Shown: positions 44,667-62,455 of the stretch, piece by piece
How the letters are laid out: the number at the start of each line of letters is the position of its first letter
Numbering within the stretch: the stretch's first letter is position 1
From: Pseudomonadota bacterium
GTDB taxonomy: Bacteria; Pseudomonadota; Alphaproteobacteria; Acetobacterales; Acetobacteraceae
Length of the DNA stretch: 64,000 nucleotides
Direction: 5' to 3'
Assembly: GCA_021845985.1 (NCBI GenBank)
Contig: JAJZES010000006.1
Location: forward strand, 1 to 64,000
Notes under the pieces: generated by a model
Database searches by the model: none
Told to the model about the DNA's origin: nothing
Seen by the model: only the letters and a program-made list of their open reading frames with translations
Program-made: the position numbers and the translations under genes

Positions 44667-44764
44667 GCGCCGCTGCATGGCAAGCCCGCGCCACCACCGC
44701 AAGGGCAGGCTTGCGCCGGACGCGCGAAAACTTCATCACGGGCGGGCGCGGGAGGGGATGGTCG

Positions 44765-45865: not shown

Positions 45866-45869
45866 TCCG

Positions 45870-46748
45870 ATGCTGCCGCAGCAACTGGCCAACGGGCTGC
45901 TGCTCGGCGCCACTTATGCCCTGTTCGCGCTGGGTTTTACCCTGATGTTCGGGGTGCTGCGCGTCATCAACCTGACCTATGGGTTCTATTTCACCCTCGG
46001 CGCCTTTCTGGCGCTGTGGCTGACGCGGGCGGGCGTCGGGCTGGTGCTGGCGCTGCCGGCCGCGGCGGTCGGCAGCGGCCTCGTTGCCGTCGGCATCGAT
46101 GCGCTGCTGCTGACCCGGCTGCGGCGGGCGCGGGCGGATGAGCTGTCGTATCTGATGGTGACGCTCGGCGCGGTGCTGGCGCTTTATGCCGGCATGGCGG
46201 CGCTGCTCGGCCCGGACATCCGCCGCCTGCCGCCGGGCACCATCGACGAGGCGGCGATCCTGCTCGGGCCGATCCGAGTGACGGCGGCGCAACTGCTGAT
46301 CCTCGGCGCCTGTGCGGTGCTGGTGGCGGCGCTGGCGGCGCTGCTGCGGGCGACGCGGCTCGGCCTGGGTATCCGCGCGCTGGCCGAGAACCCGGATGCG
46401 GCGGCGCTGATGGGCATGGCGACCGGGCGTATGGCGGCGCTGGTCTCCTTCCTCTCCGGCGCGCTGGCCGGCGCCGCGGGGGTGCTGATCGGCCTCAACT
46501 TCAACGCCATCCATCCGTACATGGGCGAGAGCATGATGCTGCGCGGCTTCGTCGTGGTCATCGCCGGCGGCCTCGGCAGCGTCGCCGGCGCCATCATCGC
46601 CGGCCTCCTGCTCGGCATCATCGAGGTACTGACCGCCGGCTATCTCTCCTCCGGGCTGAAGGAGGCGGTGGCGTTCGCCATTCTCGTGCTGGTGCTGTGG
46701 ACGCGACCGCAGGGCTTGTTCGGCCGCAGCGCGGCGGTGCGGGCGTGA
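45870..46748 (+). CDS. livH: LivH-type ABC transporter permease
   Basis: This 292-residue inner-membrane permease has eight predicted helices and the LivH signature: LLLGATYALFALGFTLMFGVLRVINLTYGFYF at the start and RALAENPDAAALMGM, the coupling loop, near 170, with VVVIAGGLGSVAGAIIAGLLLG later. It starts four bases after the binding-protein gene and its stop overlaps the livM start (GTGA). Confidence 0.92.
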   Translation: MLPQQLANGLLLGATYALFALGFTLMFGVLRVINLTYGFYFTLGAFLALWLTRAGVGLVLALPAAAVGSGLVAVGIDALLLTRLRRARADELSYLMVTLGAVLALYAGMAALLGPDIRRLPPGTIDEAAILLGPIRVTAAQLLILGACAVLVAALAALLRATRLGLGIRALAENPDAAALMGMATGRMAALVSFLSGALAGAAGVLIGLNFNAIHPYMGESMMLRGFVVVIAGGLGSVAGAIIAGLLLGIIEVLTAGYLSSGLKEAVAFAILVLVLWTRPQGLFGRSAAVRA

Positions 46749-47593
46749 CCTTGCCGCCGTTTCTCGCCGATCTGATCTGGACCTACCAGAACGTCATCGT
46801 CGCGCTCGGGGTCAACGGGCTGCTGGCGCTGGCGATGTATGTGGTGCTGGCGGCGGGGCAGCTCTCGCTCGGACAGGCGGCGTTCATGGGGCTGGGGGCC
46901 TATTCCTCGGCGCTGCTCAGTCTGCGGCTGCAGCTGCCGTTCACCGCGGTGCTGCCGCTGTCGGTGGTGGCGCCGGTCGGCTTCGCCCTGCTGGTCGGCG
47001 GGCCGACGCTGCGGCTGTCGGGCGTCTATCTCGCCATCGCCACCATCGGTCTCGGCGAGGTGCTGCGCGCGGTCTATCTCAATGTCGATGTGCTGGGCGG
47101 CGCGCTCGGCCTGTCGGGCATCCCCGAGGCGGCGCCGATTTGGCTGATCTATCTGATCCTGGCGGTGGCGCTGCTGCTGCTGTGGCGGGTCGGGCGCAGC
47201 CATATCGGGCGGGCGATGGAGGCGATGCGGGTCGATGCGGCGGCGGCGGCGGCGATGGGCGTCGATGTCCGGCGCTACCGGCTCGGCGTGCTGCTGGCCT
47301 CGGCGGCGCTGGCCGGACTGGCCGGGGCGCTGTCGGCGCACGCCACCGACTTCATCGGGCCGAACGATTACGGGTTCGAGCCGGCGGTGACCATTCTGTC
47401 GTTCGCCCTGCTCGGCGGCATCGGCTCGCCGTTCGGGCCGGTGCTTGGCGCCTGGGTGCTGACCCTGTTGCCGGAGCTGTTGCGCGGCTTTGCCGATGTC
47501 CGTCTGGTGCTGAACGGCGTCGTCATCGTGCTGGCGGTGCTGTTCCTGCCGCGCGGGCTGCTGGCGTGGCGGATGCGGCGGATCGCGGCGTGA
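46745..47593 (+). CDS. livM: LivM-type ABC transporter permease
   Basis: This 282-residue second permease carries GLLALAMYVVLAAGQLSLGQAAFMGLGAY, IATIGLGEVLRAVY and the coupling loop GRAMEAMRVDAAAAAAMGVDV. It is at the short end of the family, without the long N-terminal extension of enteric LivM. GTG 46745 is the start, overlapping the livH stop by four bases; its own stop overlaps livG in the same way. Confidence 0.92.
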   Translation: MTLPPFLADLIWTYQNVIVALGVNGLLALAMYVVLAAGQLSLGQAAFMGLGAYSSALLSLRLQLPFTAVLPLSVVAPVGFALLVGGPTLRLSGVYLAIATIGLGEVLRAVYLNVDVLGGALGLSGIPEAAPIWLIYLILAVALLLLWRVGRSHIGRAMEAMRVDAAAAAAMGVDVRRYRLGVLLASAALAGLAGALSAHATDFIGPNDYGFEPAVTILSFALLGGIGSPFGPVLGAWVLTLLPELLRGFADVRLVLNGVVIVLAVLFLPRGLLAWRMRRIAA

Positions 47594-48351
47594 GCCTGCT
47601 GGCGCTGCGCCGACTGTCGCGGCACTACGCCGGCATCGCCGCCGTCGATCGCGTCGATCTCGATGTGCCGGGCGGCGGCGTGCATGCGCTGATCGGCCCG
47701 AACGGGGCAGGCAAGACGACGCTGTTCAACCTCATCTCCGGCCTCGTCGCGCCGAGCGCCGGGACCATCGTGCTCGACGGGACCGACGTGACCCGGCGCG
47801 GGCCGGAGGTGCGGGCGCGCCTCGGCATCGCCCGCACCTTCCAGAACATCCGCATCTTCGGCGCCATGACGGCGCTGGAAAACGTGCTGACCGGGCTGCA
47901 TCCGCGCTTCGCCAGCGGCCTCGGCGCGGTGCTGGTGGGGCTGCGGCGGGTGCGGCGGGAGGAACGTCAGGCGCTGGACCGGGCGGGCGAGGCGCTGGCG
48001 CTGGTCGGGCTGCAGCGGCTGGCCGGCGCGCCGGCGGCGACGCTGTCCTATGGCGACGCGCGGCGGCTGGAGATTGCGCGCGCCATCGCCGGGGCGCCGC
48101 GCCTGCTGCTGCTCGACGAGCCGGCGGCAGGGATGAACCCGGCGGAGACGATGGCGCTGGCCGCGCTGGTGCGCCTGATCGCCCAGGCCGGCACCACGGT
48201 ACTGCTGGTCGAGCACGACATGCGCTTCGTCATGGGGCTGGCCGACAGTGTGACGGTGCTGAATTTCGGCCGCTGCATCTTCCACGGCGCGGCAGAGGCG
48301 GCGCGGCGCGACCCGGCGGTGATCGAAGCCTATCTCGGGCGGCGCGGATGA
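47590..48351 (+). CDS. livG: LivG-type ABC transporter ATPase
   Basis: This 253-residue ATPase has Walker A GPNGAGKTT, GIARTFQNIRIFGAMT (LivG-type Q-loop), a signature region reduced to LSYGDARRLEIARA (LSYG instead of LSGG, normal in LivG), Walker B LLLLDEPAAGMNP and the switch His in VEHDMRFVMGL. GTG 47590 overlaps the livM stop; the stop overlaps the livF start (ATGA). Confidence 0.92.
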   Translation: MSLLALRRLSRHYAGIAAVDRVDLDVPGGGVHALIGPNGAGKTTLFNLISGLVAPSAGTIVLDGTDVTRRGPEVRARLGIARTFQNIRIFGAMTALENVLTGLHPRFASGLGAVLVGLRRVRREERQALDRAGEALALVGLQRLAGAPAATLSYGDARRLEIARAIAGAPRLLLLDEPAAGMNPAETMALAALVRLIAQAGTTVLLVEHDMRFVMGLADSVTVLNFGRCIFHGAAEAARRDPAVIEAYLGRRG

Positions 48352-49058
48352 GCGCGCTGGAGGTCGCCGGCCTCGCCGTCGCCTATGGCCGCACGGAGGC
48401 GCTGCGCGGCGTCGATTTCGCCCTGGCGTCGGGCGAGACGGTGTGTCTGCTCGGCGCCAACGGGGCCGGCAAGACGACGACGCTGCGCGCGCTGAGCGGG
48501 CAGGTCCGGCCGCGCGCCGGCAGCATTCGGCTGGACGGGACGGATCTGGCCGGCATGGCGCCGCACCGGGTGGTCGGGCGCGGCATGGTGCAGGTGCCGG
48601 AGGGGCGGCAAATTTTCGCCGCGCTGAGCGTCGCCGAGAACCTGACGATGGGCGGCTGGCGGCAGCGCGGCGGCGCCGCGGCGGCGCGGCGGCGCGACAG
48701 CGTGCTGGCCCGCTTCCCGCGCCTGCGCGAACGGTTGCGCCAGCCGGCCGGGTCGCTGTCGGGCGGCGAACAGCAGATGCTGGCGATCGGCCGGGCGCTG
48801 ATGGCGGCGCCGCGGGTGCTGCTGCTGGACGAGCCGAGCATGGGGCTGGCGCCGCTGATGGTCGAGGAGATTTTCGCCATCATCGCCGCCCTGAAAGCCG
48901 ACGACGTGACCATTCTGCTGGTCGAGCAGAACGCCCGCGCGGCGCTGGCGGTGGCGGACCGCGCCTATGTGCTGGCAGGCGGACGGATCACACTGTCCGG
49001 CCCGGCGTGGCAGGTGGCCGACGATCCGGGCGTGGTGGCGGCGTATCTGGGGGGATAG
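48348..49058 (+). CDS. livF: LivF-type ABC transporter ATPase
   Basis: This 236-residue second ATPase has Walker A GANGAGKTT, VQVPEGRQIFAALSVAENL (LivF-type Q-loop), signature LSGGEQQMLAIGRAL, Walker B VLLLDEPSMGLAP and VEQNARAAL in place of the switch His, as usual for LivF. It ends the operon. The FAH-family gene converges on it with 68 bases between. Confidence 0.93.
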   Translation: MSALEVAGLAVAYGRTEALRGVDFALASGETVCLLGANGAGKTTTLRALSGQVRPRAGSIRLDGTDLAGMAPHRVVGRGMVQVPEGRQIFAALSVAENLTMGGWRQRGGAAAARRRDSVLARFPRLRERLRQPAGSLSGGEQQMLAIGRALMAAPRVLLLDEPSMGLAPLMVEEIFAIIAALKADDVTILLVEQNARAALAVADRAYVLAGGRITLSGPAWQVADDPGVVAAYLGG

Positions 49059-49928: not shown

Positions 49929-51200
49929 GTGATCGGAACACGCGCCTCGAAATCGCTTTATATCCAGGTGCTGATCGCCATCATCGCCGGCGTGCTGCTC
50001 GGGCATTTCTTCCCGCATATCGCGGTCGCCATGCAGCCGTTCGGCGACGGCTTCGTCAAACTGGTGCGCATGATGATCGCACCGATCATCTTCATCACCG
50101 TCGTGGTCGGCATCGGCAAGCTGACCGACACCGCCGAGGTCGGGCGGATCGGCCTCAAGGCCATCGTCTATTTCGAGTTGATGACCACCATCGCCATGCT
50201 GATCGGGCTGGCGGTGGGGCATATCGTCTCGCCCGGCGCCGGAATGAACGTCGCGCCCGCCTCGCTCGATGCGGCAGCGGTGGCGAAATACGCCAACGCG
50301 CCGCACCAGGGCGTCGCCAACTTCCTGCTCGCAATCATCCCCGACACCATCGTCGGCGCCTTTGCCAAGGGCGACATCCTGCCGGTGCTGTTCTTCGCCG
50401 TGCTGTTCGGCATCGGCGTCGCCAATATCGGCGCGCGCGGGCAGCAGATGCTGCATGTGCTGGAAGAGGCCAATGCCGCGCTGTTCGCCGTCATCGGCAT
50501 CATCATGCGCGTCGCCCCGCTGGGCGCGTTCGGCGCGATGAGCTTCACCATCGGCAAATACGGCATCGGCTCGCTGGCGCAGCTCGGCATCTTGATGCTG
50601 TGCTTCTATGTCACCTGCGCGCTGTTCATCTTCGTCGTGATGGCGGCGGTGATGCGGCTGGCCGGGCTGCGGCTGTGGCCGCTGCTGCGCTACCTGCGCG
50701 AGGAGTTTTTCATCGTGCTCGGCACCAGTTCGTCGGAGGCGGCGCTGCCATCGCTGATGGCGAAGCTGGAGCAGATGGGCTGCGCGCGTCCGCTGGTCGG
50801 CCTCGTGGTGCCGCTCGGCTATGCGTTCAACCTCGACGGCACCTCGATCTATTTCACCATGGCGATCACCTTCATCGCCCAGGCGCTGAACATCCCGCTG
50901 AGCTGGGGGGATTACGCGCTGATCCTGACGGTGCTGCTGCTGACCAGCAAAGGGGCGGCAGCGGTGACCGGGGGCGGCTTCATCACCCTGGCGGCGACGC
51001 TGGCGACGCTGAACGGCAAGGTGCCGGTGGCGGGGATCGTGCTGGTGCTGGCGATCGACCGCTTCATGAGCGAGGCGCGGGCGATCACCAATCTGTTCGG
51101 CAACTCGGTGGCGACGGTGTTCGTGGCGTGGTGGGAAGGCCAGCTTGATGTCGCCACGGCGCGGCGGACGCTGGCCGGCGGCGGCGCCACGGCGGAGTAG
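49929..51200 (+). CDS. Dicarboxylate/amino-acid:cation symporter (DctA/GltP type)
   Basis: This 423-residue inner-membrane carrier imports C4-dicarboxylates or acidic amino acids with H+ or Na+. The glutamate-transporter fold shows [18 protein letters not shown], the Ser-rich re-entrant loop [13 protein letters not shown], the substrate-binding [12 protein letters not shown] and [14 protein letters not shown], then [19 protein letters not shown] with Asp, Arg and Asn ligands. GTG 49929 follows a run of eight G, the likely ribosome-binding site. A hairpin follows the gene. Confidence 0.9.
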
Positions 51201-51221
51201 CGGTTGGTGATCGGTGCCGGG

Positions 51222-51245
51222 CCAACGCCCCATTCCGGGCGTTGG
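51222..51245 (+). terminator. Stem-loop after the DctA-type gene
   Basis: A perfect 9-base stem (CCAACGCCC at 51222-51230, GGGCGTTGG at 51237-51245) with a 6-base loop, 21 bases after the stop, followed by TTGAA. This is the most terminator-like hairpin in the window and separates the gene from the convergent SDR. Confidence 0.55.
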
Positions 51246-51343
51246 TTGAACCGGCCTGCCGAATCTGGCGCGTGTGCTGCCGCTTGCCGCTTGGTCGCGG
51301 CGCGGCAACGCCGTCGCCAGAGGGCGGAGAACGGGGCGAGAGC

Positions 51344-52264
51344 CTAAACCGGGTCCCAACCGATCACGTCGCCGCTGCGGTCGAGCGGATAGAACGAGGC
51401 TTTTAGCGCCGGCATGCCATGTTCGGCGATCAATTCCGGCGTCCAGCCCTCGCCGCGGTGTACGCTGCGGATCGGCCTGGTGTGGCTGAACAGGAAAATC
51501 TCGTTCATGCGGGCGCTGAATATCTGCCCGTTCACCTCGCCCGCCGCGTCGGAGCCGAGATAGACCGCCAGCGGCGCGTTTTTGTCCGGCGTCATCTGCT
51601 CGATCCTGGCCAGCCGCGCCTTCGCCTCCGGCGTTTCGGCCGGGATGGAGGAGGTCATCCGGCTCCAGGCGAACGGGGCAATGCAGTTGGAGCGCACGTT
51701 GAAGCGCTGCATGTCGAGCGCGATCGACTTCGACAGGGCGACGATGCCGAGCTTGGCCGCCGAGTAATTGGCCTGCCCGACATTGCCGATCAGCCCGGAG
51801 GTACTGGTCATGTGGACATAGGCGCCGCTGTTCTGGGCACGGAAATGCCCGGCGGCGGCGCGGCTGACGAAGAAGCTGCCGTTGAGATGCACGTTGATGA
51901 CGCTGGTCCAGTCCTCCGCCGTCATCTTGTGGAACATCACGTCGCGCAGGATGCCGGCATTGTTGACCACGATGTCGATGCGGCCGAAGCTGTCGATTGC
52001 CGCCTGCACGATGTGCTGGGCCGAAGTCCAGTCGCTGACGCTGTCGGTGTTGATGACGGCGCGCCCGCCGCGCTGCTCGATGATCTGCCGGGTCTGCTCC
52101 GCCGGTGTCGCCGAGCCGCCATGGCCGCTGAGTGATACGCCGATGTCGTTGATCACCACCGCAGCGCCGGCCAGCGCCATCGCCACCGCGATTTCCCGAC
52201 CAATGCCGCCGCCGGCCCCGGTCACCACCGCTACCTTGCCGTCCAGCATGCCCGCTTGCGTCAT
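51344..52264 (-). CDS. SDR dehydrogenase, 3-hydroxyacyl-CoA dehydrogenase (MFE-2-like)
   Basis: This 306-residue short-chain dehydrogenase resembles the dehydrogenase part of multifunctional enzyme 2 of beta-oxidation. VVTGAGGGIGREIA, NDIGVSLSG near 40, NNAGILRD, the Ser in MTSTSGL and the intact Tyr-x3-Lys in ANYSAAKLGI are all present, and the C-terminal ASFYPLDRSGDV tail is longer than in FabG. ATG 52264 is used; a second ATG five codons later is possible. It is the last gene of the minus-strand acyl-CoA operon. Confidence 0.88.
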   Translation of the reverse strand: MTQAGMLDGKVAVVTGAGGGIGREIAVAMALAGAAVVINDIGVSLSGHGGSATPAEQTRQIIEQRGGRAVINTDSVSDWTSAQHIVQAAIDSFGRIDIVVNNAGILRDVMFHKMTAEDWTSVINVHLNGSFFVSRAAAGHFRAQNSGAYVHMTSTSGLIGNVGQANYSAAKLGIVALSKSIALDMQRFNVRSNCIAPFAWSRMTSSIPAETPEAKARLARIEQMTPDKNAPLAVYLGSDAAGEVNGQIFSARMNEIFLFSHTRPIRSVHRGEGWTPELIAEHGMPALKASFYPLDRSGDVIGWDPV

Positions 52265-52321
52265 GTTCGTCCCTCCCGCATGTACTGGATCAGTCGCGCG
52301 GCGCGCCGCCTGCGTCAATCG

Positions 52322-53473
52322 TCATCGCCGGGCGCCCAGGCCGAGCACCTCGCGGGCGATGATGCTGCGCTGAATCTCCGAGGTGCCGCCATAAATCGTC
52401 GTCGGCCGCGCCTGAATGAACAGTCCGGCGGGATGCAGCGCACGATTATCCTCCATCGGATCGAGCAGCCCGGCGTTTTCGCCGGCCACCTCCAGCATGG
52501 TCTCGGTGATGCGCTGAAACAGCTCGCTCTGGTTGATCTTCAGCAGCGAGACATCCGCCCCCAGAGTCTCGCCACGCCGCAGCCGTTCGGCGAACACTTC
52601 ATACAGCGCCTTGTGGTCGGCCAGATCGAGCCGCAGCCGGGTGTAGCGGTCGCGGAATCCCGGATCTTCCGTCACCCCCATCGCCTCGCCCAGTTCGCGC
52701 AGCCGCGCCAGCGCATGGGCGGATTGCCTGGCCGAGCCGAGGAAGATGCGCTCAAAGCCAAGCAGCGCCTTGGCCATCGTCCAGCCTTTGTTGACCTCGC
52801 CGACGAGATTGCCCCGCGGCACGCGAACATCGTCGAAAAACACCTCGCAGAACTCGTCGTGCAATTCGAGATTGACAATCGGCCGCACGGTGATGCCGGG
52901 ACTGTCCATCGGCACCAGCAGGAAGGAAATGCCCTCCTGCTTCTTCGCCGCCTTGTCGGTGCGCACCAGCAGAAAAATCCAGTTGGCGTCGGTCGCCATC
53001 GTGGTCCAGGTTTTCTGGCCGTTGACCACCCAGTGGTCGCCGTCGGCCACCGCCTCGGTGCGCAGACCGGCAAGGTCCGATCCGGCGCCCGGCTCGCTGT
53101 AGCCCTGGCACCAGACATGCGCGCCGGCGAGGATTTTCGGCAAAAAGAACGCGCGTTGTTCGGCCGTGCCGTAGCGGATCAGCAGCGGGCCGAGCAGCAC
53201 GATGCCATGATCCGGCGCACGGGCGACGCCGAAGCGTTCATATTCATCAGTCAGCACCAGCAGCTTCGCCGCATTCAGCCCCATACCGCCATGCTCGCGC
53301 GGCCATGCCGGCGCCAGCCACCCTTTTGCCGACAGCGTCATGTACCAGGGTTTGATCGCCGGCCAGTGCAGGCGTCTCGGCGGATTGCGTAGCGCCGGCG
53401 GATAGTGCTCCTCCAGGAAGCGGCGCACTTCGCCGCGGAACTCGTCATCGCTCAACGCATTCCACTCAGTCAC
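52322..53473 (-). CDS. Acyl-CoA dehydrogenase
   Basis: This 383-residue FAD enzyme oxidises an acyl-CoA to the 2-enoyl-CoA. It has WCQGYSEPGAGSDLAGL (FAD loop), VVNGQKTWTT, FCEVFFDDVRVP, and the C-terminal IYGGTSEIQRSIIAREVLG. The catalytic-base position is less clear; the HPAGLF/GGTSEIQ region fits the FadE-type subgroup seen in steroid and branched-acid degradation. It lies 57 bases upstream of the SDR gene and 120 bases after the DUF35 gene, all on one strand. Confidence 0.9.
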   Translation of the reverse strand: MTEWNALSDDEFRGEVRRFLEEHYPPALRNPPRRLHWPAIKPWYMTLSAKGWLAPAWPREHGGMGLNAAKLLVLTDEYERFGVARAPDHGIVLLGPLLIRYGTAEQRAFFLPKILAGAHVWCQGYSEPGAGSDLAGLRTEAVADGDHWVVNGQKTWTTMATDANWIFLLVRTDKAAKKQEGISFLLVPMDSPGITVRPIVNLELHDEFCEVFFDDVRVPRGNLVGEVNKGWTMAKALLGFERIFLGSARQSAHALARLRELGEAMGVTEDPGFRDRYTRLRLDLADHKALYEVFAERLRRGETLGADVSLLKINQSELFQRITETMLEVAGENAGLLDPMEDNRALHPAGLFIQARPTTIYGGTSEIQRSIIAREVLGLGARR

Positions 53474-53593
53474 GGCGTTCTCCTCGCGGCGCGCAGTCCA
53501 GCCGCCTTTTGCCCCGGCGCGCGCGACGGCCGGGTCTTCGCGTCGTTGCGGCTGACCGCGCCGGTCACCGCCTGGGCAACCGGACCAGCCGAA

Positions 53594-53977
53594 CTAATCC
53601 GGCGTGAAGCACGCCACCGGCGTCCCGTCCGCGCTCGGGCGGAACACCAGCCGAACCGGCTGGCCGATCCGCAGCGCATCGAAATCGCAGTCAACCAAAT
53701 TGGTCATCAGCGTCGGCCCGCCGGCCAGCGCGACATAGGCGATGGCATAGTTCGGCGTCACCCGGCGCATGACGCTGTAACTGTAGATCGTGCCGCGTCC
53801 GTCATGCGCCTCCCAGGCGGTGGCGCCGAAGCAGAACGGGCACAGCGCGCGCGGGTACCAGTGGGTCCGGCCGCACTGGGTGCAGCGGCGCAGCAGGAAG
53901 CGGCCGGCGGCGGCGGCGGCGTAAAACGGTGCGCTCTCCGGCGTCTGTGGCGGCGCCGGCAGGCTGCGGTCGGTCAT
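53594..53977 (-). CDS. DUF35 Zn-ribbon/OB-fold protein, partner of a thiolase-like enzyme
   Basis: This 127-residue protein has a zinc ribbon with two CxxC pairs in RRCTQCGRTHWYPRALCPFC (about 31-50) followed by an OB-fold with GTIYSYSVMRR and VRLVFRPS. DUF35 proteins bind thiolase-type partners; with Ltp2-like proteins they form aldolases in steroid side-chain breakdown. It starts at ATG 53977, five bases after the thiolase stop, so the two are almost certainly a complex. Confidence 0.88.
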   Translation of the reverse strand: MTDRSLPAPPQTPESAPFYAAAAAGRFLLRRCTQCGRTHWYPRALCPFCFGATAWEAHDGRGTIYSYSVMRRVTPNYAIAYVALAGGPTLMTNLVDCDFDALRIGQPVRLVFRPSADGTPVACFTPD

Positions 53978-53982
53978 CGCCG

Positions 53983-55149
53983 TCACTCCCGTTCCAGGAT
54001 CAGCGTTGCCGCGCCGTGCCGGCTGCCGAGCAGCCCGCCGGTACCGTGCGCCAGCGCCAGATCGCAGTGTTTCACCTGCACCGCCGGATGCGCCTCGCCG
54101 CGCAATTGCCGCACCGCCTCGATCACCTTGGTAATGCCGCCGCGGTTGGCCGGATGGTTGTTGCACAGGCCGCCGCCATCGGTGTTGAACGGCAGCCGGC
54201 CGACGCCGGAGATCAGGTTGCCGTCAGCGACGAAACGGCCGCCCTGCCCTTTGGCGCAGAAGCCGAGGTCTTCGATCTGCATCAGCACGGTGATGGTGAA
54301 ACTGTCGTAGAGCGAGGCATATTTGATGTCGGCGGGCGTCAGCCCGGCCTCGGCGAAGGCGGCCGGGCCGGACCAGCGCGCCGCCGAATACGTCAGATCG
54401 ACCGCGCCGCCATCCTGGCCCTTCATCGCCTCCCCGGCGCCGCGGACCTTGACCAGCGGGCGTGCCAGAGCGCGCGCCACCTCCGGCGCCACCACCACCA
54501 GCGCCCCGCCGCCATCGCTGACGACGCAGCAATCGAGCCGGTGCAGCGGGTCGGCGATGATCGGGCTGTCGAGCACGTCCTGCACCGTCACCACCTCGCG
54601 CAGCATGGCGTGCGGGTTGTGCTGCGCATGATGGCTCGCCGCCACCTTGATCCAGGCGAGCTGTTCGCTGGTGGTGCCGTACTCGTGCATGTGGCGCATC
54701 GCACACATGCCGTAGACGTTTGTCGTCACCGGGCCGAACGGCATCTCCCACGCCGCATCCGGCACGCCGCCGGCGGCCGGACGCGGCGCGGTGCCGCTGG
54801 AGCCTTCGCTGCGCGGCCGGCCGGCAAGCGTGATCAGCGCCACCCGGCATTTCCCCGCCGCGATCGCCGCCGCCGCATGCGCGACATGGGCGATGTAGGA
54901 ACAGCCGCCGAGATCGGTGCTGTCGAGATGGCGCAGCCGCAGGTTCATGTAGTCGGCCATCGCCAACGGCCCCAGACCGGGCGCGTCGCCGGCGCAGAAA
55001 TACCCGTCCACATCGTCCTTGGTCAGCCCGGCATCGGCCAGCGCCCCGGCGGCGCACTCGGCGTGCAACTGCGCCAGCGACAGGTCCGGCGCCTTGCGCG
55101 TCGGATGTTCCCAGGCGCCGGCGATATAGGCTTTGCCGTTGATGCTCAT
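53983..55149 (-). CDS. Thiolase-like protein (SCP-x/Ltp type)
   Basis: This 388-residue thiolase-fold protein belongs to the lipid-transfer/SCP-x branch. It shows YIAGAWEHPTRKA, Cys83 in DLGGCSYIAHVAHAAAAI near the position of the thiolase nucleophile, VVSDGGGALVV, CNNHPANRGG with the catalytic His region, and ALAHGTGGLLG. The classical second catalytic cysteine near the C-terminus is not seen, as in Ltp-type aldolases. With the DUF35 gene five bases downstream it may act as a retro-aldolase on a beta-hydroxyacyl-CoA rather than a thiolase. ATG 55149; divergent from the crotonase gene. Confidence 0.85.
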   Translation of the reverse strand: MSINGKAYIAGAWEHPTRKAPDLSLAQLHAECAAGALADAGLTKDDVDGYFCAGDAPGLGPLAMADYMNLRLRHLDSTDLGGCSYIAHVAHAAAAIAAGKCRVALITLAGRPRSEGSSGTAPRPAAGGVPDAAWEMPFGPVTTNVYGMCAMRHMHEYGTTSEQLAWIKVAASHHAQHNPHAMLREVVTVQDVLDSPIIADPLHRLDCCVVSDGGGALVVVAPEVARALARPLVKVRGAGEAMKGQDGGAVDLTYSAARWSGPAAFAEAGLTPADIKYASLYDSFTITVLMQIEDLGFCAKGQGGRFVADGNLISGVGRLPFNTDGGGLCNNHPANRGGITKVIEAVRQLRGEAHPAVQVKHCDLALAHGTGGLLGSRHGAATLILERE

Positions 55150-55207
55150 CGCCTCGCTTTCCCTCATCAGCCGCACTCTGCCACACTCCGCCTGACAGGA
55201 GGAACGC

Positions 55208-55993
55208 ATGACCGAGGATTTGCTCGAACAGCACGCCGATGGCGTCGTCACGCTGACGATGAACCGAGCGGACCGGCTGAACGCCCTGTCCGACGCGATG
55301 GTCGCGGCGCTGGTCGAAGCGCTGCCGCGGCTTGGCGCCGACCCGGCGGTCGGCGCCATCATCCTCACCGGCGCCGGCCGCGGCTTCTGCGCCGGCGGCG
55401 ATGTCAAGACCATGGCCGGCCGCCACGATGCCACGTTCGAACAGCGGCTGGAGGCGCTGCGCGCCATGCAGCTTGTGGCGCGGCTGCTCTACACCACGCC
55501 GAAAGTGATTATCGGCATGGTCAACGGGGTCGCCGCCGGCGCCGGCATGGCCATCGCGCTGGCCTGCGACCTGCGGCTCGCCGCCGCCTCTGCGCGCTTT
55601 GCCACCGCCTTCGGCGGCATCGGCTTTTCCGGCGATTTCGGCATCAACTGGTCGCTGACCCGCCTCGTCGGCGGCGCCCGCGCCCGCGAACTGATGTTTT
55701 TGGGCGAGATGCTGGACGCCGCGGCGGCTCTACGCCTCGGCCTGGTGACGCGCTGCGTGCCGGACGCCGATCTGCTGGCCGAGACCACCTCCCTGGCACG
55801 GCGCATCGCCGCCGGGCCGCGCGTCGCCTTCGGCTATATGAAGCGCAACCTCAACGCCGCCGCCACCGAGCCGCTGGATGCGGTGCTGGAGCTGGAAGCG
55901 ATGCACCAGATCCGCGCCTCCTGCACCGAGGACCACCAAGAGGCGCGCACCGCCTTCGTCGAGAAGCGCCCGCCGGTGTTTCGGGGGCGCTGA
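55208..55993 (+). CDS. Enoyl-CoA hydratase/isomerase-family protein
   Basis: This 261-residue crotonase-fold protein has RADRLNALSDAM, GFCAGGDVKTMAGR (oxyanion hole) and NGVAAGAGMAIALACDLRLA. The first hydratase Glu is replaced (GAGMA) and the second region reads AFGGIGFSGDFG with an Asp, similar to PaaG/ECI-type isomerases that use a single Asp. An isomerase is therefore more likely than a hydratase. A GGAGGAAC ribosome-binding site precedes ATG 55208. The gene is divergent from the thiolase gene with a 58-base shared promoter region and is followed after one base by a DECR-like SDR. Confidence 0.88.
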   Translation: MTEDLLEQHADGVVTLTMNRADRLNALSDAMVAALVEALPRLGADPAVGAIILTGAGRGFCAGGDVKTMAGRHDATFEQRLEALRAMQLVARLLYTTPKVIIGMVNGVAAGAGMAIALACDLRLAAASARFATAFGGIGFSGDFGINWSLTRLVGGARARELMFLGEMLDAAAALRLGLVTRCVPDADLLAETTSLARRIAAGPRVAFGYMKRNLNAAATEPLDAVLELEAMHQIRASCTEDHQEARTAFVEKRPPVFRGR

Positions 55994-55994
55994 C

Positions 55995-56840
55995 ATGTTC
56001 CTCCCCGATCTGCTGCGCGGCAAACGCATCCTGGTGACCGGCGGGGGCACCGGCCTCGGCAAGAGCATCGGGCGGCGGTATGCCGAGCTGGGCGCCGAGG
56101 TGATCATCTGCGGCCGCCGCGCCGGCGTGCTGGCGGCGACCGCCGACGAAATCGCGGCGGCGACCGGGCGGCCGGTGGCGCATCATGTCTGCGACGTGCG
56201 CGACGCCGCCGCGGTCGAGGCGATGATGGCCGCGGTGTGGCAGGACGGCCCGCTCGATGCGCTGATGAACAACGCCGCCGGCAATTTCATCGCCCGAACC
56301 GAACGGTTGTCGCCGCGCGCCTTCGATGCGGTGCTGAACATCGTGCTGCACGGCACCGCCTATTGCACCATGGCCGTCGGCCGCCGCTGGATCGAGGCTG
56401 GGCGCGGCGGCTTCATTCTCAGCGTCGGCACCACTGCGGCGTTTACCGGCGGTCCCTATACGGTGCCCTCCGCCGCGGCCAAGGCGGGCGTGCTGGCGAT
56501 GATGCGCAGCCTCGCCGTCGAATGGGGACCCAAGGGCATCCGCACCGCCGTCGTCGCTCCCGGTCTGTTTCCAACCAAGGGCGCCTGGGACCGGCTCTAT
56601 CCACAAAATGCCCAGCCGGAGCCGCAAGAGATGGGGGTGCCGTTGCGCCGCGTCGGCGTGCATGCGGAACTGGCCAATCTCTGCGCCTATCTGATGTCCG
56701 ACCACGCCAGCTATATCAGCGGCGAGTGCATCGTCATCGACGGCGGACGCTGGATGCAGGGCGTCGGCGGCAACATCGCGCGCACGCTGGAGCGCTGGAC
56801 CAACGACGACTGGGAGCGCTTCCGCCAGGGCGGCGGTTAA
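55995..56840 (+). CDS. SDR, 2,4-dienoyl-CoA reductase-like
   Basis: This 281-residue SDR has VTGGGTGLGKSIG, NNAAGNFI, and SVGTTAAFTGGPYTVPSAAAKAGVLAMMRSLAVEWG split by features of the DECR branch: the usual Tyr is replaced (PSAAAKAG keeps the Lys) and NNAAGNF is its cofactor-loop signature. Such enzymes reduce dienoyl-CoAs with NADPH during breakdown of unsaturated acids. It starts one base after the crotonase stop, so the two form an operon and could act in sequence on double bonds. Confidence 0.85.
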   Translation: MFLPDLLRGKRILVTGGGTGLGKSIGRRYAELGAEVIICGRRAGVLAATADEIAAATGRPVAHHVCDVRDAAAVEAMMAAVWQDGPLDALMNNAAGNFIARTERLSPRAFDAVLNIVLHGTAYCTMAVGRRWIEAGRGGFILSVGTTAAFTGGPYTVPSAAAKAGVLAMMRSLAVEWGPKGIRTAVVAPGLFPTKGAWDRLYPQNAQPEPQEMGVPLRRVGVHAELANLCAYLMSDHASYISGECIVIDGGRWMQGVGGNIARTLERWTNDDWERFRQGGG

Positions 56841-56931
56841 TGCCCAGCGGGATATGCGAGGCGCCGGGCCGCCGGCCCGCGGCGCTCGCTATCGTGTTGC
56901 GGCGGCCGGTGGTGGCGACAGGCGCCGCGGC

Positions 56932-58815
56932 TCACTCGCCGGACAGTTCCCGCCGCCGCCGGTCCAGTTCCTCGCTGTAGCGCCGCAGCGCGTAGGCTTC
57001 GGTCAGCAGGCCGATGACCCGGCGGCTGTCCTTGCCATCGACCACCACCAGAGCGTCCGCCTCCGCCTGCTCGAACAGGCTGACCGCATCCTTGATCGTC
57101 ATCTGCGGCAGCAGCATGTCGGCGGCGTAGTGCAGGATGTCGGTCAGCCGGGTGTTCTCGTCCATGTCCGGGGCATGCGCCTCCGGCACCAGCACGATCC
57201 CGGCATAGCGATCGGATCTGTCCAGCACCACCACGCGCGTCGCCGCGCCGAGCGGGAAGTCGCGGCGGAAGGCGGCGATCGTGGTGTCGGCCTGCACCGT
57301 GCGCAGTTCGCGGCGCATCATCCGCGCGACGGTCAGGTTGCGCATCCAGCCGATATCGACGGCGCTGCGGATCGCCTCGCCGCGCAGATGGAACCGCCAC
57401 GTCGCAAAACTGTAGCCGAAGGTGCGCCGCACCGTTAGCGCCGACACCGCCGCCGCCATCACCACGGCAACCGTCAGCGGCAGGCTGCCGGTGCTCTCCA
57501 GCGCCAGGAACGCCATCGTCAGCGGCCCGCCGACGATGGCAACGGCCAGTGCGCTCATCCCCACCAGCGCGCCCACCACCGGCGGCACCGCCTGCGTCGT
57601 CGCGATCAGCGCCAGCGCCCCGGTGAACAGCTTGCCGAGCAGCGCGCCGAGGAACAGCGAGGCGAAGAACAGCCCGCCGCGGAACCCCGAACCGATCGAG
57701 ATCGCCGAGGCCAGCGCCTTGAGCACGATCAGCAGCGTCAGATGGCGCAGCGTGTAGGGCGCATCCATCGTCACCTGCAGCGCGGCGTGGCCGGAGGACA
57801 GCACCTGCGGCGAGGCCAGCGCCAGTGCGGCGACGCACAGCCCGCCGATCGCCGGGCGCATCCAGGTCGGCACCCGGCTGCGGCGGAAGAAATCCTCGGT
57901 CAGCGTCACCCCGCGCATGATGGCGATGCCAACCAGCGCCGCCAGCATGCCGAGCGCCAGCACCGGCAGGTAATCGACCGCGGCGATGGCGGTCGGCAAC
58001 TGGATGTCGAAGCCATACAGCTCCGGCGTCAGGATGCGCACCACCACTACGGCGACGATGGCGGCGCTGACCACCGGCGCCAGCGTCGCCAGGGAATAGG
58101 TGCCGATGACCAGCTCGTAGGCATAGAAGGCGCCGGTCAGCGGCGCGTTGAAGGCGGCAGCAATGGCGCCAGCGGCGCCGCACCCGACCAGCAGCCGCAA
58201 ATCGTTGCGCCGCACCCGGAAGCTGCGGCCGAGCCGCGAGGCCACCGCCGAGCCGATCTGCGTATAGCCCGCCTCCAGCCCCACCGAGGCACCGACACCG
58301 TTCGACAGCATGGTCTGGGCGACGACGATCAGGCTGTCGGTGAGCGACATGCGCCCGCCATAGAGCGCGTTGGCCTCGATCGGGTCGATGGTGCGGCGTG
58401 GCCACCAGCGGGTCAGCGCGAAGCCCGACAGCCCCATCAGCACCCCGCCGACCAGCAGCGAGCCGGCGGTGCGCCAGGGATCGACGAACACCTGACCACT
58501 CAGCCGCTCGCCCGGTGCGACGCCATAGAGCAACTGGTGCATCGCCTGGGTGACGAGGCCCATCGCGGTGACACAGAGGCCGGCGGCAAGCCCGACCAGG
58601 CCGGCGAGCACGACCAGCCAGATTTCGTCGGTGCGGACCAGCGCGCGCAGCGTCTGCGGCGCATGCAGTACCCATTCGTTCAGCTTGCGGCGCGGGCGGG
58701 CGGGCGTGTCGGCGGGGTCGCGACCGGCGCCCGCCAGTCCCGTCAGCCGCTCCAGAACACTTCGGCGCCGCTTGCCGGTTGCCGCCGGCAAGGCGCCGCC
58801 CAAAAACCCCGCCAT
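56932..58815 (-). CDS. ClC-type chloride channel/antiporter with CBS domains
   Basis: This 627-residue membrane protein has the ClC fold (about 70-500): GVGASVGLEAGYTQIGS keeps the gating Glu, GCGAAGAIAAAFNAPLTGAFYAYE, and GSGFRGGLFFASLFLGA form the anion path. A C-terminal pair of CBS domains (about 510-620) may bind nucleotides. ATG 58815 is used; ATG 58887 would add 24 residues. Length and CBS tail fit the long bacterial ClC class. It converges on the DECR-like gene with 91 bases between. Confidence 0.9.
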   Translation of the reverse strand: MAGFLGGALPAATGKRRRSVLERLTGLAGAGRDPADTPARPRRKLNEWVLHAPQTLRALVRTDEIWLVVLAGLVGLAAGLCVTAMGLVTQAMHQLLYGVAPGERLSGQVFVDPWRTAGSLLVGGVLMGLSGFALTRWWPRRTIDPIEANALYGGRMSLTDSLIVVAQTMLSNGVGASVGLEAGYTQIGSAVASRLGRSFRVRRNDLRLLVGCGAAGAIAAAFNAPLTGAFYAYELVIGTYSLATLAPVVSAAIVAVVVVRILTPELYGFDIQLPTAIAAVDYLPVLALGMLAALVGIAIMRGVTLTEDFFRRSRVPTWMRPAIGGLCVAALALASPQVLSSGHAALQVTMDAPYTLRHLTLLIVLKALASAISIGSGFRGGLFFASLFLGALLGKLFTGALALIATTQAVPPVVGALVGMSALAVAIVGGPLTMAFLALESTGSLPLTVAVVMAAAVSALTVRRTFGYSFATWRFHLRGEAIRSAVDIGWMRNLTVARMMRRELRTVQADTTIAAFRRDFPLGAATRVVVLDRSDRYAGIVLVPEAHAPDMDENTRLTDILHYAADMLLPQMTIKDAVSLFEQAEADALVVVDGKDSRRVIGLLTEAYALRRYSEELDRRRRELSGE

Positions 58816-59129: not shown

Positions 59130-62100
59130 ATGAGCCTGACCGTCAGCTCCGGGCAGATCGTCTCTGCCACCAGTGCCTCGCCGTATATCGGCTCGGGCAC
59201 GGTCGAAAACGGCGGATCATTGATCGTCGTCTCCGGCGGCGACATCAATTACGTCGTCGTGCAGGCGGGCGGCAGCGCGACGGTGCTGTCCGGTGGGCAG
59301 AGCTTTTTCACCACCGTCGATGGCGGCGGCGTGCTGACGATCTCCTCTGGCGGCGGGCCGTTCCTCAATCTGGACACGGTGGTTCTTGCCGGCGGCGTTG
59401 AACAGGTGCTGTTCAGCGGCACCGCGACATCGTCGTTCCTGTCCGGCGGGATCGAGCGGCTGGCGGCCGGCGCGGTCGCCTCGGCGGTCAGCGCCACCGC
59501 CGGCGGCACCCAGGTCGTCTCGCTCGGCGCCACCGCGATCGGCACCGAACTCGGCTCCGGCGGGATGTTGGAGGTGCTCAACGGCGGCACCGCCGTTGAT
59601 ACCAATTCGGCGCCGAACTTTGCCGGCCCGACCGGGGTGGCGGGATCGGCGGTGGTTTCCGCCGGCGGCAGCCTGTCGGCGACATCCGGGTCTTACGTCG
59701 AATCCGTCACCGTGCTGGCCGGCGGCAGCGTCAGCATCGCCGGCGGTGGGGCGATCAAGGACAGTGTTCTCGACGGGGTGACGCTGAGCCTTGGCTCGCG
59801 CGCGTTCGGCTTCAACAACACGCTGTCCGGCGGCGGCGAGACGATCACCTCGGGCGGCGGCGACAGTTTTTCGATCCTGCTGGCCGGCGCCACCGCCAGC
59901 GTGCTGGGCGGCAGCGCCAGCGACCTGACCCTGTCGGGCGCGACAATGACGGTGCTGTCCGGCGGCACCGTCGCGTCCACCCGAGTCTCCGCCGGCGGCC
60001 TGCTCATCGTCGGCACCAGCGGCTCGGCCACGCTCGACGGGATTTCTGCCGGCGGCAGCGAGACGGTGTCGTCGGGCGGCGCCGTCAGCCTGCAATACGA
60101 CGGCGGCGCGCAGACCATTTCCGCCGGCGGCGTCGCCAGCGGCACCAATGTCGCGACCGGCGGGACGCAGACGGTGCTGCTGAGCGGAATCGCCTCGGCA
60201 ACCTCGGTCAGCGGCGGAACGCAGATGGTTTCCTCCGGCGGGCTGGCGATCGACACCACGGTCAATGGCGGCAGCGCCGTGATCTCCGCCGGCGGCACGC
60301 TGGAAGTGCTGGCGGGGCACACGGCGCGCGGCGTCACCCTGCTGTCGGGCGCCATCCTGCTGGCCGATTCGGGCAGCACGCTGCAGGCCAGTGAAGTCGG
60401 CAGCGCCGCCACCCTGGCGGTCTCCGCCGGGGTCAGCGAGTTGGCGACCCTGGTGCTGGACGGCGGCTATGAGGCGGTCGGCTCCGGCGTCATCGCCACC
60501 AGCGTCACCGTCATGCGGGGCGGCAGCCAGACCGTGTTCAACGGCGGCACCGCCGACAACACCATGCTCGGCGGCTACTTCGACCCCTCGACCGGGTCGC
60601 CGACCAGCACGCTGCAGCCGGGCGGCGCGCAATATATCTCCTCGGGCGGCCACGCCAACGACACGACGATCGACGCCGGCGGCGTGCAAACGATCTTTAC
60701 CTCCGGCATCGCCAGCTTCACGCTGGTCTCCACCGGCGGCCAGGCGGTGGTGTCGAACGGCGGCACGCTGTCGGCAGTGGTGGTCGATGCCGGCGGCAGC
60801 GTCGTCATCTCCGCCGGCGGCGTCGACCTGGGCGGCCAGCTTGGCGCACCCGGCGCCAGCATTCCGAGCGAGTTCGGCATCTCCGGCGGCAGCGCCAGCG
60901 TGCTCAGCGGCGGCACCGCGAGCGGGCTGGCGGTCTATTCCGGCGGCATGCTCAGCGTTGCCGCCGGCGGCAGCGTCATCAACCCGCTGATCGGCGGCGG
61001 CACGCTCGATCTTGCCGTCGGCGCATCGGTCAGCGGCACGATCAGCTTCGCCGCCGGCATTGGCGGCGGCGAGTTGGTGATCAACAGCACCGTCATGCCG
61101 ACGGCGCCGATCGGCTCGCTCGGTCCCAACGACACCATCGACCTTGCCGGCATCCCGTTCGCTTCCGGTGCCAGCGTGGTGCTCGGCGCCAACGACGTGC
61201 TGAGCATCACCGAAGGCGGCCACACCTATGATCTCAACCTGATCTCGGCCGGACTGGGCGGTCAGGCGATCACCCTGGCCGCGGCACCCGGCGGCGGCGG
61301 CACGCTGATCGAGGTGGCGTGCTATGCCGCCGGCAGCCGCATCGCGACGCCCACCGAGATGGCTCCGGTGGAGACGCTGCGACCGGGCGATAGCGTGCTG
61401 GCGTGGCAGGATGGCGCGTGGCGGCCGGCGCCGGTGCGCTGGGTCGGCCAGCGGACCGTCGATCTTGCCCGTCATCCGCGCCCGCAGCAGGCGGCGCCGA
61501 TCCGCATTGCCGCCGGCGCCATCGCCGAGGGCGTGCCGTGCCGCGACCTGCTGCTCTCGCCCGACCATGCGGTGCTGATCGACGCGGCGCTGATCCAGGC
61601 GCAGGCGCTGCTGAACGGCATCACCGTGACGCAGCAGACGCCGCCGCAGATCAGCTATTGGCATGTCGAACTCGACCAGCACGGTCTGCTGCTGGCCGAG
61701 GGGCTGGCGGCGGAGAGCTATCTCGACACCGGCAACCGGGCGCTGTTTGCCGGAGAATCCGGCGCCACGCCGCTGCACCCCGATCTGGCCTCGGCGGCGG
61801 CGTGGACGACGCGCGGCTGCGCCCCGCTGCATCTCGCCGACGTCGCCGTCGCCGCGGCGCATGCGCGTGTGCTGCTGCGCGCACTCGCCGACGGCCATAT
61901 GGTGACGGCCGATCCCGACCTCATCGTCCTCGCCGATGGCGCGACGGTGCTGGCCGGCGCCTCCTGGTGCGGGTGCGGCGACCCGGCGACCTGGGATTTG
62001 CCGCTGCCGGCGGGAACGCGGCGGCTGCGGCTGATCAGCCGGCGGTTCGTTCCGGCCTGGTTCGCCGAGCCGGATCGCCGCCAACTCGGCGTTGCCGTCG

Positions 62101-62321
62101 CCGCGCTGACGGTCGCCGGCCGGCGGCTGCCGCGCGCCGCCTTCGCCAGCGGCTGGCACGCCCAGGAACGCCATTGGCGCTGGACCAATGGCGATGCGGT
62201 GATCGAACTCAAGCCGGCGCGCGGCACGACATCGCTGCGCCTGACGCTGGCCGCCGCCGGGGCGCGCTACTGGACCGCGCCGGCACTGCCACGCCGCCGG
62301 GACATGGCTGCCGACATCTGA
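59130..62321 (+). CDS. AIDA-type repeat protein with C-terminal Hint domain
   Basis: This 1063-residue protein has two parts. Residues 1 to about 650 are many imperfect repeats of roughly 18-20 residues with paired-glycine turns (VLSGGTA, ISAGG, VSSGG), like the AIDA repeats that form a beta-helix in adhesins. From about 728 comes a Hint (hedgehog/intein) domain: Cys731 in VACYAAGSRIATP, LRPGDSVLAW, CRDLLLSPDHAVLI with the conserved His, and SYWHVELDQHGLL. A further 180 residues follow. There is no signal peptide and no beta-barrel, so it is not a classical autotransporter. Hint domains can self-cleave or attach proteins to other molecules; Cys731 and the His suggest activity. Export route and partner unknown. 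Antisense long frames are artefacts of GC-rich repeats. Confidence 0.9.
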   Translation: MSLTVSSGQIVSATSASPYIGSGTVENGGSLIVVSGGDINYVVVQAGGSATVLSGGQSFFTTVDGGGVLTISSGGGPFLNLDTVVLAGGVEQVLFSGTATSSFLSGGIERLAAGAVASAVSATAGGTQVVSLGATAIGTELGSGGMLEVLNGGTAVDTNSAPNFAGPTGVAGSAVVSAGGSLSATSGSYVESVTVLAGGSVSIAGGGAIKDSVLDGVTLSLGSRAFGFNNTLSGGGETITSGGGDSFSILLAGATASVLGGSASDLTLSGATMTVLSGGTVASTRVSAGGLLIVGTSGSATLDGISAGGSETVSSGGAVSLQYDGGAQTISAGGVASGTNVATGGTQTVLLSGIASATSVSGGTQMVSSGGLAIDTTVNGGSAVISAGGTLEVLAGHTARGVTLLSGAILLADSGSTLQASEVGSAATLAVSAGVSELATLVLDGGYEAVGSGVIATSVTVMRGGSQTVFNGGTADNTMLGGYFDPSTGSPTSTLQPGGAQYISSGGHANDTTIDAGGVQTIFTSGIASFTLVSTGGQAVVSNGGTLSAVVVDAGGSVVISAGGVDLGGQLGAPGASIPSEFGISGGSASVLSGGTASGLAVYSGGMLSVAAGGSVINPLIGGGTLDLAVGASVSGTISFAAGIGGGELVINSTVMPTAPIGSLGPNDTIDLAGIPFASGASVVLGANDVLSITEGGHTYDLNLISAGLGGQAITLAAAPGGGGTLIEVACYAAGSRIATPTEMAPVETLRPGDSVLAWQDGAWRPAPVRWVGQRTVDLARHPRPQQAAPIRIAAGAIAEGVPCRDLLLSPDHAVLIDAALIQAQALLNGITVTQQTPPQISYWHVELDQHGLLLAEGLAAESYLDTGNRALFAGESGATPLHPDLASAAAWTTRGCAPLHLADVAVAAAHARVLLRALADGHMVTADPDLIVLADGATVLAGASWCGCGDPATWDLPLPAGTRRLRLISRRFVPAWFAEPDRRQLGVAVAALTVAGRRLPRAAFASGWHAQERHWRWTNGDAVIELKPARGTTSLRLTLAAAGARYWTAPALPRRRDMAADI

Positions 62322-62455
62322 GCGGCGTCCGACTGCCCGGCAAGCCGTCGCTCACCGCGCCAATGCGCCGGATCGAGCGGGCAGTGCATTGCGCGCTCTC
62401 GCCTTTTGGCTGAACCCGGGGTATCGGCGGGCGCGCCTTGCCCGAGGGTATCACC

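Follow-up and report, generated by a model that had tools for sequence, protein, structure and literature searches.

A cluster of six genes in two divergent arms occupies positions 51344-56840 of the 64,000-nucleotide stretch of Acetobacteraceae DNA analyzed here (contig JAJZES010000006.1, positions 1 to 64,000; "the window" below). With moderate confidence we propose that the left arm of this cluster contributes four subunits to a seven-gene, apparently non-steroid acyl-CoA pathway, in which a thiolase-like protein and its DUF35 partner would act as a retro-aldolase. This proposal is drawn from gene content, conservation, the active-site pattern, the predicted fold and the recurrence of the gene set. 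An earlier note on the same DNA had likened the DUF35/thiolase-like pair to the aldolases of steroid side-chain breakdown and called it Ltp-like. The tree, the structural model and the active site largely support this resemblance, whereas an identity with Ltp2 itself is not supported.

The thiolase-like protein exceeds the cut-off of the family PRK08142 (NF006010) by far, with 752 versus 462 bits, and contains a Thiolase_C_1 domain (Pfam, 7.9e-50). It does not reach the classical thiolase model TIGR01930 (24 bits, cut-off 240) or NF005892 (PRK07855), which we take to be the model of the steroid aldolase Ltp2 (223 bits, cut-off 469). Residue conservation was assessed on 129 aligned homologues, and the counts given here refer to the 115 with at least 55% identity, a set that is not fully non-redundant. 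Where thiolases carry their nucleophile, all 115 relatives have a glycine (Gly82), 17 residues before the conserved Gly99 and hence with the same spacing as the Cys in 7yvy and BbsB. Gly82 thus stands where classical and SCP-x thiolases have their Cys nucleophile in the N-terminal active-site helix. Tyr281-Asp282-Ser283-Phe284-Thr and Asn331-His332-Pro333 are likewise invariant (115/115 for each residue). Cys83 was considered as a displaced nucleophile and rejected, this position being Cys in 24, Ser in 79 and Ala in 12 of the 115 sequences.

In the bile-acid aldolase CtSal, which works with the DUF35 protein Shy, Tyr302 and Cys304 are the catalytic residues and a Cys nucleophile is absent; for TcLtp2, the partner of the DUF35 protein ChsH2, Tyr294 and Tyr344 are cited as catalytic (PMC12329534). 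In our alignment Gly82 corresponds to Sal Gly89, Tyr281 to Sal Tyr302 and Ltp2 Tyr294, Ser283 to Sal Cys304 and Ltp2 His296, and His332 to Sal Gln352 and Ltp2 Tyr344. Thus, PRK08142 shares the base Tyr of both enzymes, lacks the acid of Sal and has a His at the acid place of Ltp2, so that neither the Tyr302/Cys304 dyad of Sal nor the Tyr294/Tyr344 pair of Ltp2 is present in full. CtSal (PDB 9myr; 33% identity) also shares with the window the YD motif and the logic of acyl-CoA dehydrogenase (ACAD), MaoC and aldolase. In contrast to its MaoC-fused DUF35 partner, the DUF35 protein of the window stands alone, and there is no steroid context. TcLtp2 (PDB 6ok1) is 35% identical.

An AlphaFold2 model of the thiolase-like protein (mean predicted local distance difference test score, pLDDT, 86.7; predicted template modeling score 0.90; pLDDT under 50 for residues 333-335, beside His332) was compared with known structures by VIA-align. 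The best Z score was obtained for Sal (51.2; root-mean-square deviation, rmsd, 2.3 over 371 aligned residues), followed by the Sphaerobacter 'thiolase' 4u4e (50.8; rmsd 1.9, 352 aligned) and Ltp2 (49.8; rmsd 2.1, 362 aligned). TbSLP (48.3), the Pyrococcus thiolase (47.7), 6esq (47.3) and BbsB (45.5) come next; the thiolases 7yvy, 6esq and BbsB lie at 45-48, SCP2 thiolases at 41-44 (zebrafish SCP2-thiolase 44.4) and classical thiolases at 34.9 and below. As the top three span 1.4 units and the nearest Cys-thiolase is 2.1 away, the order of the Z scores is suggestive only. In a maximum-likelihood tree PRK08142 forms one clade (20 rows, support 100/100), which is joined first by PRK06158 together with 4u4e (99/97). 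PRK08142, PRK06158, 4u4e, Sal and Ltp2 group together (32 rows, 100/99), with the Cys-thiolases 7yvy, BbsB, PRK06157 and PRK07516 outside. The full tree therefore does not contain the grouping with ordinary thiolases that the earlier note had named as refuting its idea, and it supports, though it does not prove, a place on the aldolase side. The sister clade of PRK06158 (NF004811) and 4u4e has the Gly at the Cys place, Tyr281 and the His-Pro motif in common with the window protein at 39-48% identity; its motif reads YDAF in L151, L153 and L156 (L numbers denote compared loci) and YDSF in 4u4e, and in these three loci the neighboring DUF35 gene precedes the thiolase-like gene, whereas it follows it in the window.

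The DUF35 protein matches both ChsH2 domains of Pfam (2.9e-18 and 1.1e-11), and its PDB matches 9myr_B and 6ok1_B are the partners of Sal and Ltp2. A DUF35 gene lies directly downstream of the thiolase-like gene at 133 of 137 places (near-duplicate loci included), which is more than chance would give. Three of the exceptions leave no room for it, and in L123 it is encoded on the opposite strand at a distance of about 5.4 kb. Each zinc-ribbon cysteine is present in most, though not all, of the sequences (n = 134: Cys32 in 129, Cys35 in 112, Cys46 in 117, Cys49 in 112). As in DUF35-dependent C-C lyases, the subunit is encoded alongside, and it is predicted to be the partner subunit of the lyase.

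The ACAD of the window has the motif GFERIF, the Glu of which aligns with the Glu of 4x28, and lacks GGIGYTDE, presumably the FAD signature of the small ACAD subunit; in the small subunits of contig C35 of the same genome, L130 and L113 the pattern is reversed. Glu and FAD signature thus reside on different subunits, as in alpha2beta2 ACADs of the PimCD/ChsE type, although the PimC model TIGR03204 is not reached (287 bits, cut-off 624). The window ACAD looks like half of a heterotetramer with its partner on C35 (L170), where the small subunit gene forms an operon with genes for an ADP-forming CoA ligase and a 151-residue MaoC protein. This apparent half-enzyme, with ligase, hydratase and second ACAD on another contig, had been missed by the earlier note. 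Complete seven-gene sets are found in L113, L130 and L131 in the order ADP-forming CoA ligase, MaoC, ACAD small subunit, ACAD large subunit, thiolase-like protein, DUF35 and short-chain dehydrogenase/reductase (SDR), with 72-76% (ACAD large subunit) and 76-80% (SDR) identity to the window. In L130 and L131 a gene for a binding protein of the tripartite tricarboxylate transporter (TTT) type stands between the ACAD large subunit and thiolase-like genes, and in L113 and L131 the SDR gene is followed by an MmgE/PrpD gene. A search of the window's genome did not yield the long MaoC of L130. The short MaoC adjoins the pair in L132/L067 and L134/L054 (near-duplicate pairs) and L143, and a homologue (58% identity) lies beside the pair on a Pseudonocardia plasmid (L147). 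The SDR adjoins it in L113, L130, L131, L133, L134, L135 and others. Its closest structures are MFE-2 dehydrogenases, and it is predicted to act as a dehydrogenase either on 3-hydroxyacyl-CoA or on the cleavage product.

The same partners (ACAD large subunit, MaoC, ligase, SDR) surround PRK06158 in an Actibacterium locus (L151) and on a P. aeruginosa plasmid (L155, where the stretch truncates the thiolase gene and a DUF35 gene was not seen), so that PRK08142 and PRK06158 look interchangeable in one pathway skeleton. The latter plasmid (847 kb, typed conjugative) carries the PRK06158 thiolase, ADP ligase, MaoC and two ACADs, and its SDR is 74% identical to that of the window. Taken together, the left arm probably belongs to a ligase/dehydrogenase/hydratase/C-C-lyase pathway that resembles the steroid side-chain triad without serving steroids.

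From these features we infer the reactions, the acid/base roles, complex formation and the kind of substrate. A free acid would be activated by the ADP-forming CoA ligase of C35, the acyl-CoA desaturated by the heterotetrameric ACAD (large subunit from the window, small subunit from C35) and the enoyl-CoA hydrated by the MaoC hydratase, also of C35. The 3-hydroxyacyl-CoA would then be cut by the thiolase-like/DUF35 pair in a retro-aldol reaction, giving acetyl- or propionyl-CoA and a ketone or aldehyde. Tyr281 may take the proton of the 3-hydroxyl group, as proposed for Sal Tyr302 and Ltp2 Tyr294, and His332 may protonate the enolate, which would be a third solution beside Cys304 in Sal and Tyr344 in Ltp2. 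The SDR could oxidize a hydroxyl group in a further round or act on the product, while the 2,4-dienoyl-CoA reductase (DECR)-like protein and the isomerase of the right arm would remove the double bonds of an unsaturated substrate. A non-steroid counterpart, as judged from its description, may be IpfDE of ibuprofen degradation, which is described as a retro-aldolase or thiolase releasing propionyl-CoA (PMC9195938) and works with a ring dioxygenase.

The membership of the right arm in this pathway is the weaker part of the proposal. Its isomerase carries GAGMAI and FGGIGF at what we take to be the hydratase Glu places, and its Asp143 aligns with the Asp of PDB 2ej5 and 6slb, presumably the position of the PaaG-type catalytic Asp. 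It stays below the cut-off of the PaaG model TIGR02280 (345 bits) and is predicted to be a delta3-delta2 enoyl-CoA isomerase. The DECR-like SDR has human mitochondrial DECR1 as its best PDB match, carries SAAAK in place of YxxxK and scores 248 bits against the cut-off of 318 of NF005811 (SDR-type 2,4-dienoyl-CoA reductase). These two proteins plausibly serve an unsaturated substrate. DECR orthologues (E 1e-60 or better) are found in 4 of 34 other genomes and in none of the four of the same genus; the isomerase (E 1e-50 or better) occurs in 9 of the 34, one of them of the same genus, at places other than the PRK08142 thiolase-like matches. The same-genus loci L133, L134 and L135 have no isomerase and a DECR match of only 35%. 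We therefore consider it only slightly less than an even chance that the two arms belong to separate pathways, isomerase and DECR being an unsaturated-acyl-CoA module that adjoins the pair here by chance. Against such a separation, the arms start merely 58 bp apart, and DECR homologues (47-65%) are present in clusters of similar type on plasmids of Paraburkholderia (OB-fold protein, thiolase, three enoyl-CoA hydratases (ECH), DECR, ACADs and MaoC), Variovorax (with PRK06158), Sphingopyxis (with a Cys-type PRK06157 thiolase) and Tistrella (ACADs and ADP ligase, no thiolase in the stretch). Furthermore, an unrelated NADPH-dependent 2,4-dienoyl-CoA reductase lies in a PRK06158 cluster of Polaromonas JS666. 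Since these clusters were chosen by likeness to the DECR, SDR or ACAD of the window, they are not an unbiased sample. The assumption of the earlier note that both arms form one set is thus favored by clusters elsewhere but not by the same-genus loci, where isomerase and DECR are not found beside the pair, and one operon of six genes is unsupported by the relatives looked at.

Several observations weigh against retro-aldol cleavage or against the seven-gene set as a unit. The MFE-2-type SDR is present in all five fullest sets (L113, L130 and L131 with PRK08142, L151 and L155 with PRK06158), so that a 3-ketoacyl-CoA substrate fits them better than an aldol. In a reduced tree without eight rows of the full tree (seven from its list of long branches, and L128; BbsB, also on that list, was kept) the split from the thiolases drops to 91/75, and a grouping of PRK08142 with Cys-thiolases is not rejected (approximately unbiased (AU) test, p 0.076). 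Equivalents of Gly82 and Tyr281 also occur in L005, a paralogue outside the aldolase clade, and the activity of Sal C304S was undetectable (PMC12329534), yet PRK08142 has a Ser at this place. In the genome of the window the gene set is split over two contigs, and most pairs among 80 loci, many of them short, have no SDR or ACAD nearby. In favor of the retro-aldol reading, a neighbor tally with plasmid-derived probes, which is weak for most families, assigned the label 'another thiolase' within 3 kb upstream in 11 loci (71 of the 80 have the full 3 kb), the five remaining distance bins holding 1, 1, 0, 0 and 0 such loci; thiolysis in those 11 loci may therefore be served by another gene. However, L144, one of the two 'other thiolase' probes and left out of both trees, has no Cys at place 82, so that some labeled neighbors may not be Cys-thiolases and the label is only partly secure.

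The pair might instead cleave the 3-ketoacyl-CoA formed by MaoC and SDR in a retro-Claisen reaction without a Cys acyl-enzyme, with direct attack by CoA or water and Tyr281 and His332 as acid/base, as a Cys-free analogue of BbsAB or of the MFE-2/SCP-x route. Apart from the SDR, this is favored by the thiolase His-Pro motif, which is kept in 115/115 sequences and missing in Sal and Ltp2, and by BbsB, a DUF35-type thiolase of the same fold. The pathway of the benzoylsuccinyl-CoA thiolase BbsAB (PDB 7pxp) includes an SDR and an ACAD; in contrast to the window protein, BbsAB has a Cys nucleophile and an HDAF motif and falls outside the clade, the characterized members of which are aldolases. In addition, an SDR of more than 55% identity lies within 6 kb of the pair in only 11 of the 80 loci. 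We know of no thiolase that works without its Cys; a lyase of this kind could not thiolyze a 3-ketoacyl-CoA by the known mechanism, which makes the presence of the SDR problematic. Given the SDR and the only partly secure label of the upstream thiolases, we regard retro-Claisen cleavage as unlikely but keep it in consideration, and retro-aldol cleavage remains our preferred reading.

A more far-reaching proposal, which we consider improbable as a whole, is that PRK08142 and PRK06158 represent a widespread third class of DUF35 C-C lyases, Cys-free and with a Tyr/His dyad, some members of which, in view of the MFE-2-type SDR in all fullest sets, may cleave 3-ketoacyl-CoAs without an acyl-enzyme. 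To our knowledge, Cys-free and acyl-enzyme-free cleavage of 3-ketoacyl-CoAs has no example in the thiolase fold. In the literature no functional report was found for PRK08142, nor for PRK06158, 4U4E or the Sphaerobacter thermophilus thiolase, and searches combining DUF35, thiolase and acyl-CoA dehydrogenase returned only steroid papers, as judged by their titles.

That the thiolase-like protein works as an ordinary degradative thiolase in beta-oxidation is hardly credible, as only the overall fold and the Thiolase_C_1 domain agree with it, while the Cys nucleophile is absent in all 115 relatives, TIGR01930 is missed by a wide margin and the Z scores to classical thiolases are at most 35 versus about 50 to the aldolases. 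A steroid side-chain pathway with the pair as Sal/Ltp2 orthologue is similarly very improbable. The ACAD is indeed nearest to PDB 4x28 and 6wy9, which we take to be ACADs with a steroid role. However, no protein of the genome comes near the cut-off of NF009479/PRK12845, presumably the 3-ketosteroid delta1-dehydrogenase family (best 78 versus 793 bits; this one model only), the Ltp2 model is not reached, and joining PRK08142 to Ltp2 alone or to Sal alone gives AU p values of 0.046 and 0.039 in the reduced tree. The dehydrogenase-hydratase-aldolase logic is shared with C. testosteroni ORF40-44 (PMC12502768). Because of the PRK12845 result and the separate clade a steroid pathway was judged unlikely, and the steroid link is one by analogy only.

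Open reading frames and Pfam and NCBIfam searches confirm the divergent cluster described by the earlier note with all six genes, including the Asp-type isomerase and the DECR-like SDR of the second arm (Table 1). For the SDR of the left arm the ATG at 52264 is preferred over a TTG at 52318, and the ACAD gene starts with GTG. The gaps are 57 bp between SDR and ACAD, 120 bp between ACAD and DUF35 and 5 bp from the stop of the thiolase-like gene to the DUF35 start. A sigma-70-like promoter was not found in 51000-57200. The nearby regulator that the earlier note had suggested looking for was not among the genes scanned at 42.9-59 kb, a scan that is not an exhaustive annotation.

Table 1. Features of the divergent cluster in the window
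Feature	Position	Strand	Evidence
SDR, MFE-2/HSD17B4 dehydrogenase type	51344-52264	-	PDB 2et6 4.8e-97, 1gz6 1.5e-59
ACAD, PimC-like large subunit, Glu241 (GFERIF)	52322-53473	-	PDB best 4x28, 6wy9, 6wy8
DUF35 protein, zinc ribbon and OB (oligonucleotide/oligosaccharide-binding) fold	53594-53977	-	Pfam zf-ChsH2 and OB_ChsH2_C
Thiolase-like protein, PRK08142/NF006010	53983-55149	-	ATG at 55149; NF006010 752 bits
Spacer between divergent arms, 58 bp	55150-55207	.	gene starts
Crotonase-fold Asp-type enoyl-CoA isomerase, PaaG-like	55208-55993	+	PDB alignment; TIGR02280 208 bits
DECR-like SDR	55995-56840	+	PDB 1w6u 4.4e-64; NF005811 248 bits

Just before the cluster lies a Liv-type ATP-binding cassette (ABC) transporter operon (44711-49058, + strand; binding protein, two permeases, two ATPases), followed by genes for a fumarylacetoacetate-hydrolase (FAH)-family protein and a DctA transporter; the ABC operon and DctA possibly transport the substrate of the pathway. 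On the far side a ClC channel is encoded. At 59130-62321 (+) a 1063-residue Gly/Ser-rich repeat protein is encoded, the opposite strand being open as well over 985 codons, and a cupin protein (62438-63064, +) matches the Pfam family PF16867 of dimethylsulfoniopropionate (DMSP) lyases (4.7e-34).

Scores above the PRK08142 cut-off were obtained in 23 of the 59 other genomes searched, whereas the 14 control genomes gave none. The genome of the window has two copies, the second pair (L124, 8580-9764, - strand, G000:C40) adjoining CitE/RipC-like and RipB-like genes, an ECH, an AMP ligase and SDRs. In L001/L125 (G000:C9:108369-109633) a DUF35 gene follows a thiolase-like match that falls into two separate stretches and may represent a broken or frameshifted copy. 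A thiolase-fold paralogue (L126, G000:C24:50340-51386), from the genome in which no protein approaches the PRK12845 cut-off, joins Sal in the tree on a very long branch (98/92). The best titled genome matches of PRK08142 are two alphaproteobacterial/unclassified metagenome-assembled genomes, then Methylobacterium and Acetobacteraceae-type genera; plasmid matches (62-67% identity) include Rhodococcus, Mycobacterium, Pseudonocardia, Halomarina and Natrinema. PRK08142 and PRK06158 together extend over Alpha- and Betaproteobacteria, Rokubacteria and actinobacterial and haloarchaeal plasmids. In keeping with the earlier note, the present analysis does not name the substrate either. As weak pointers, the TTT-type binding proteins and the ADP-forming ligases point to an organic acid that is imported, and the PimC/PimD-like ACADs recall dicarboxylates. 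The pair lies near pobA and pca genes in Phaeobacter and near a P450 in Rhodococcus, so that substrates probably differ between hosts. Degradation of cyclohexylacetate has an orphan lyase; a literature search on this compound as substrate yielded no useful paper among the 15 of 51 matches listed.

Overall, the analysis adds an invariant Gly/Tyr/His pattern, a seven-gene pathway whose genes lie on two contigs, and the exchange of PRK08142 for PRK06158. Entries of both families carry the names 'thiolase domain-containing protein' or 'acetyl-CoA acetyltransferase', and pathway reconstructions will thus treat them as thiolases. Should they prove to be DUF35 lyases, a reaction known for steroid side chains and described for ibuprofen would become a general one in acyl-CoA catabolism, spanning bacteria and haloarchaea and using a new acid/base pair.

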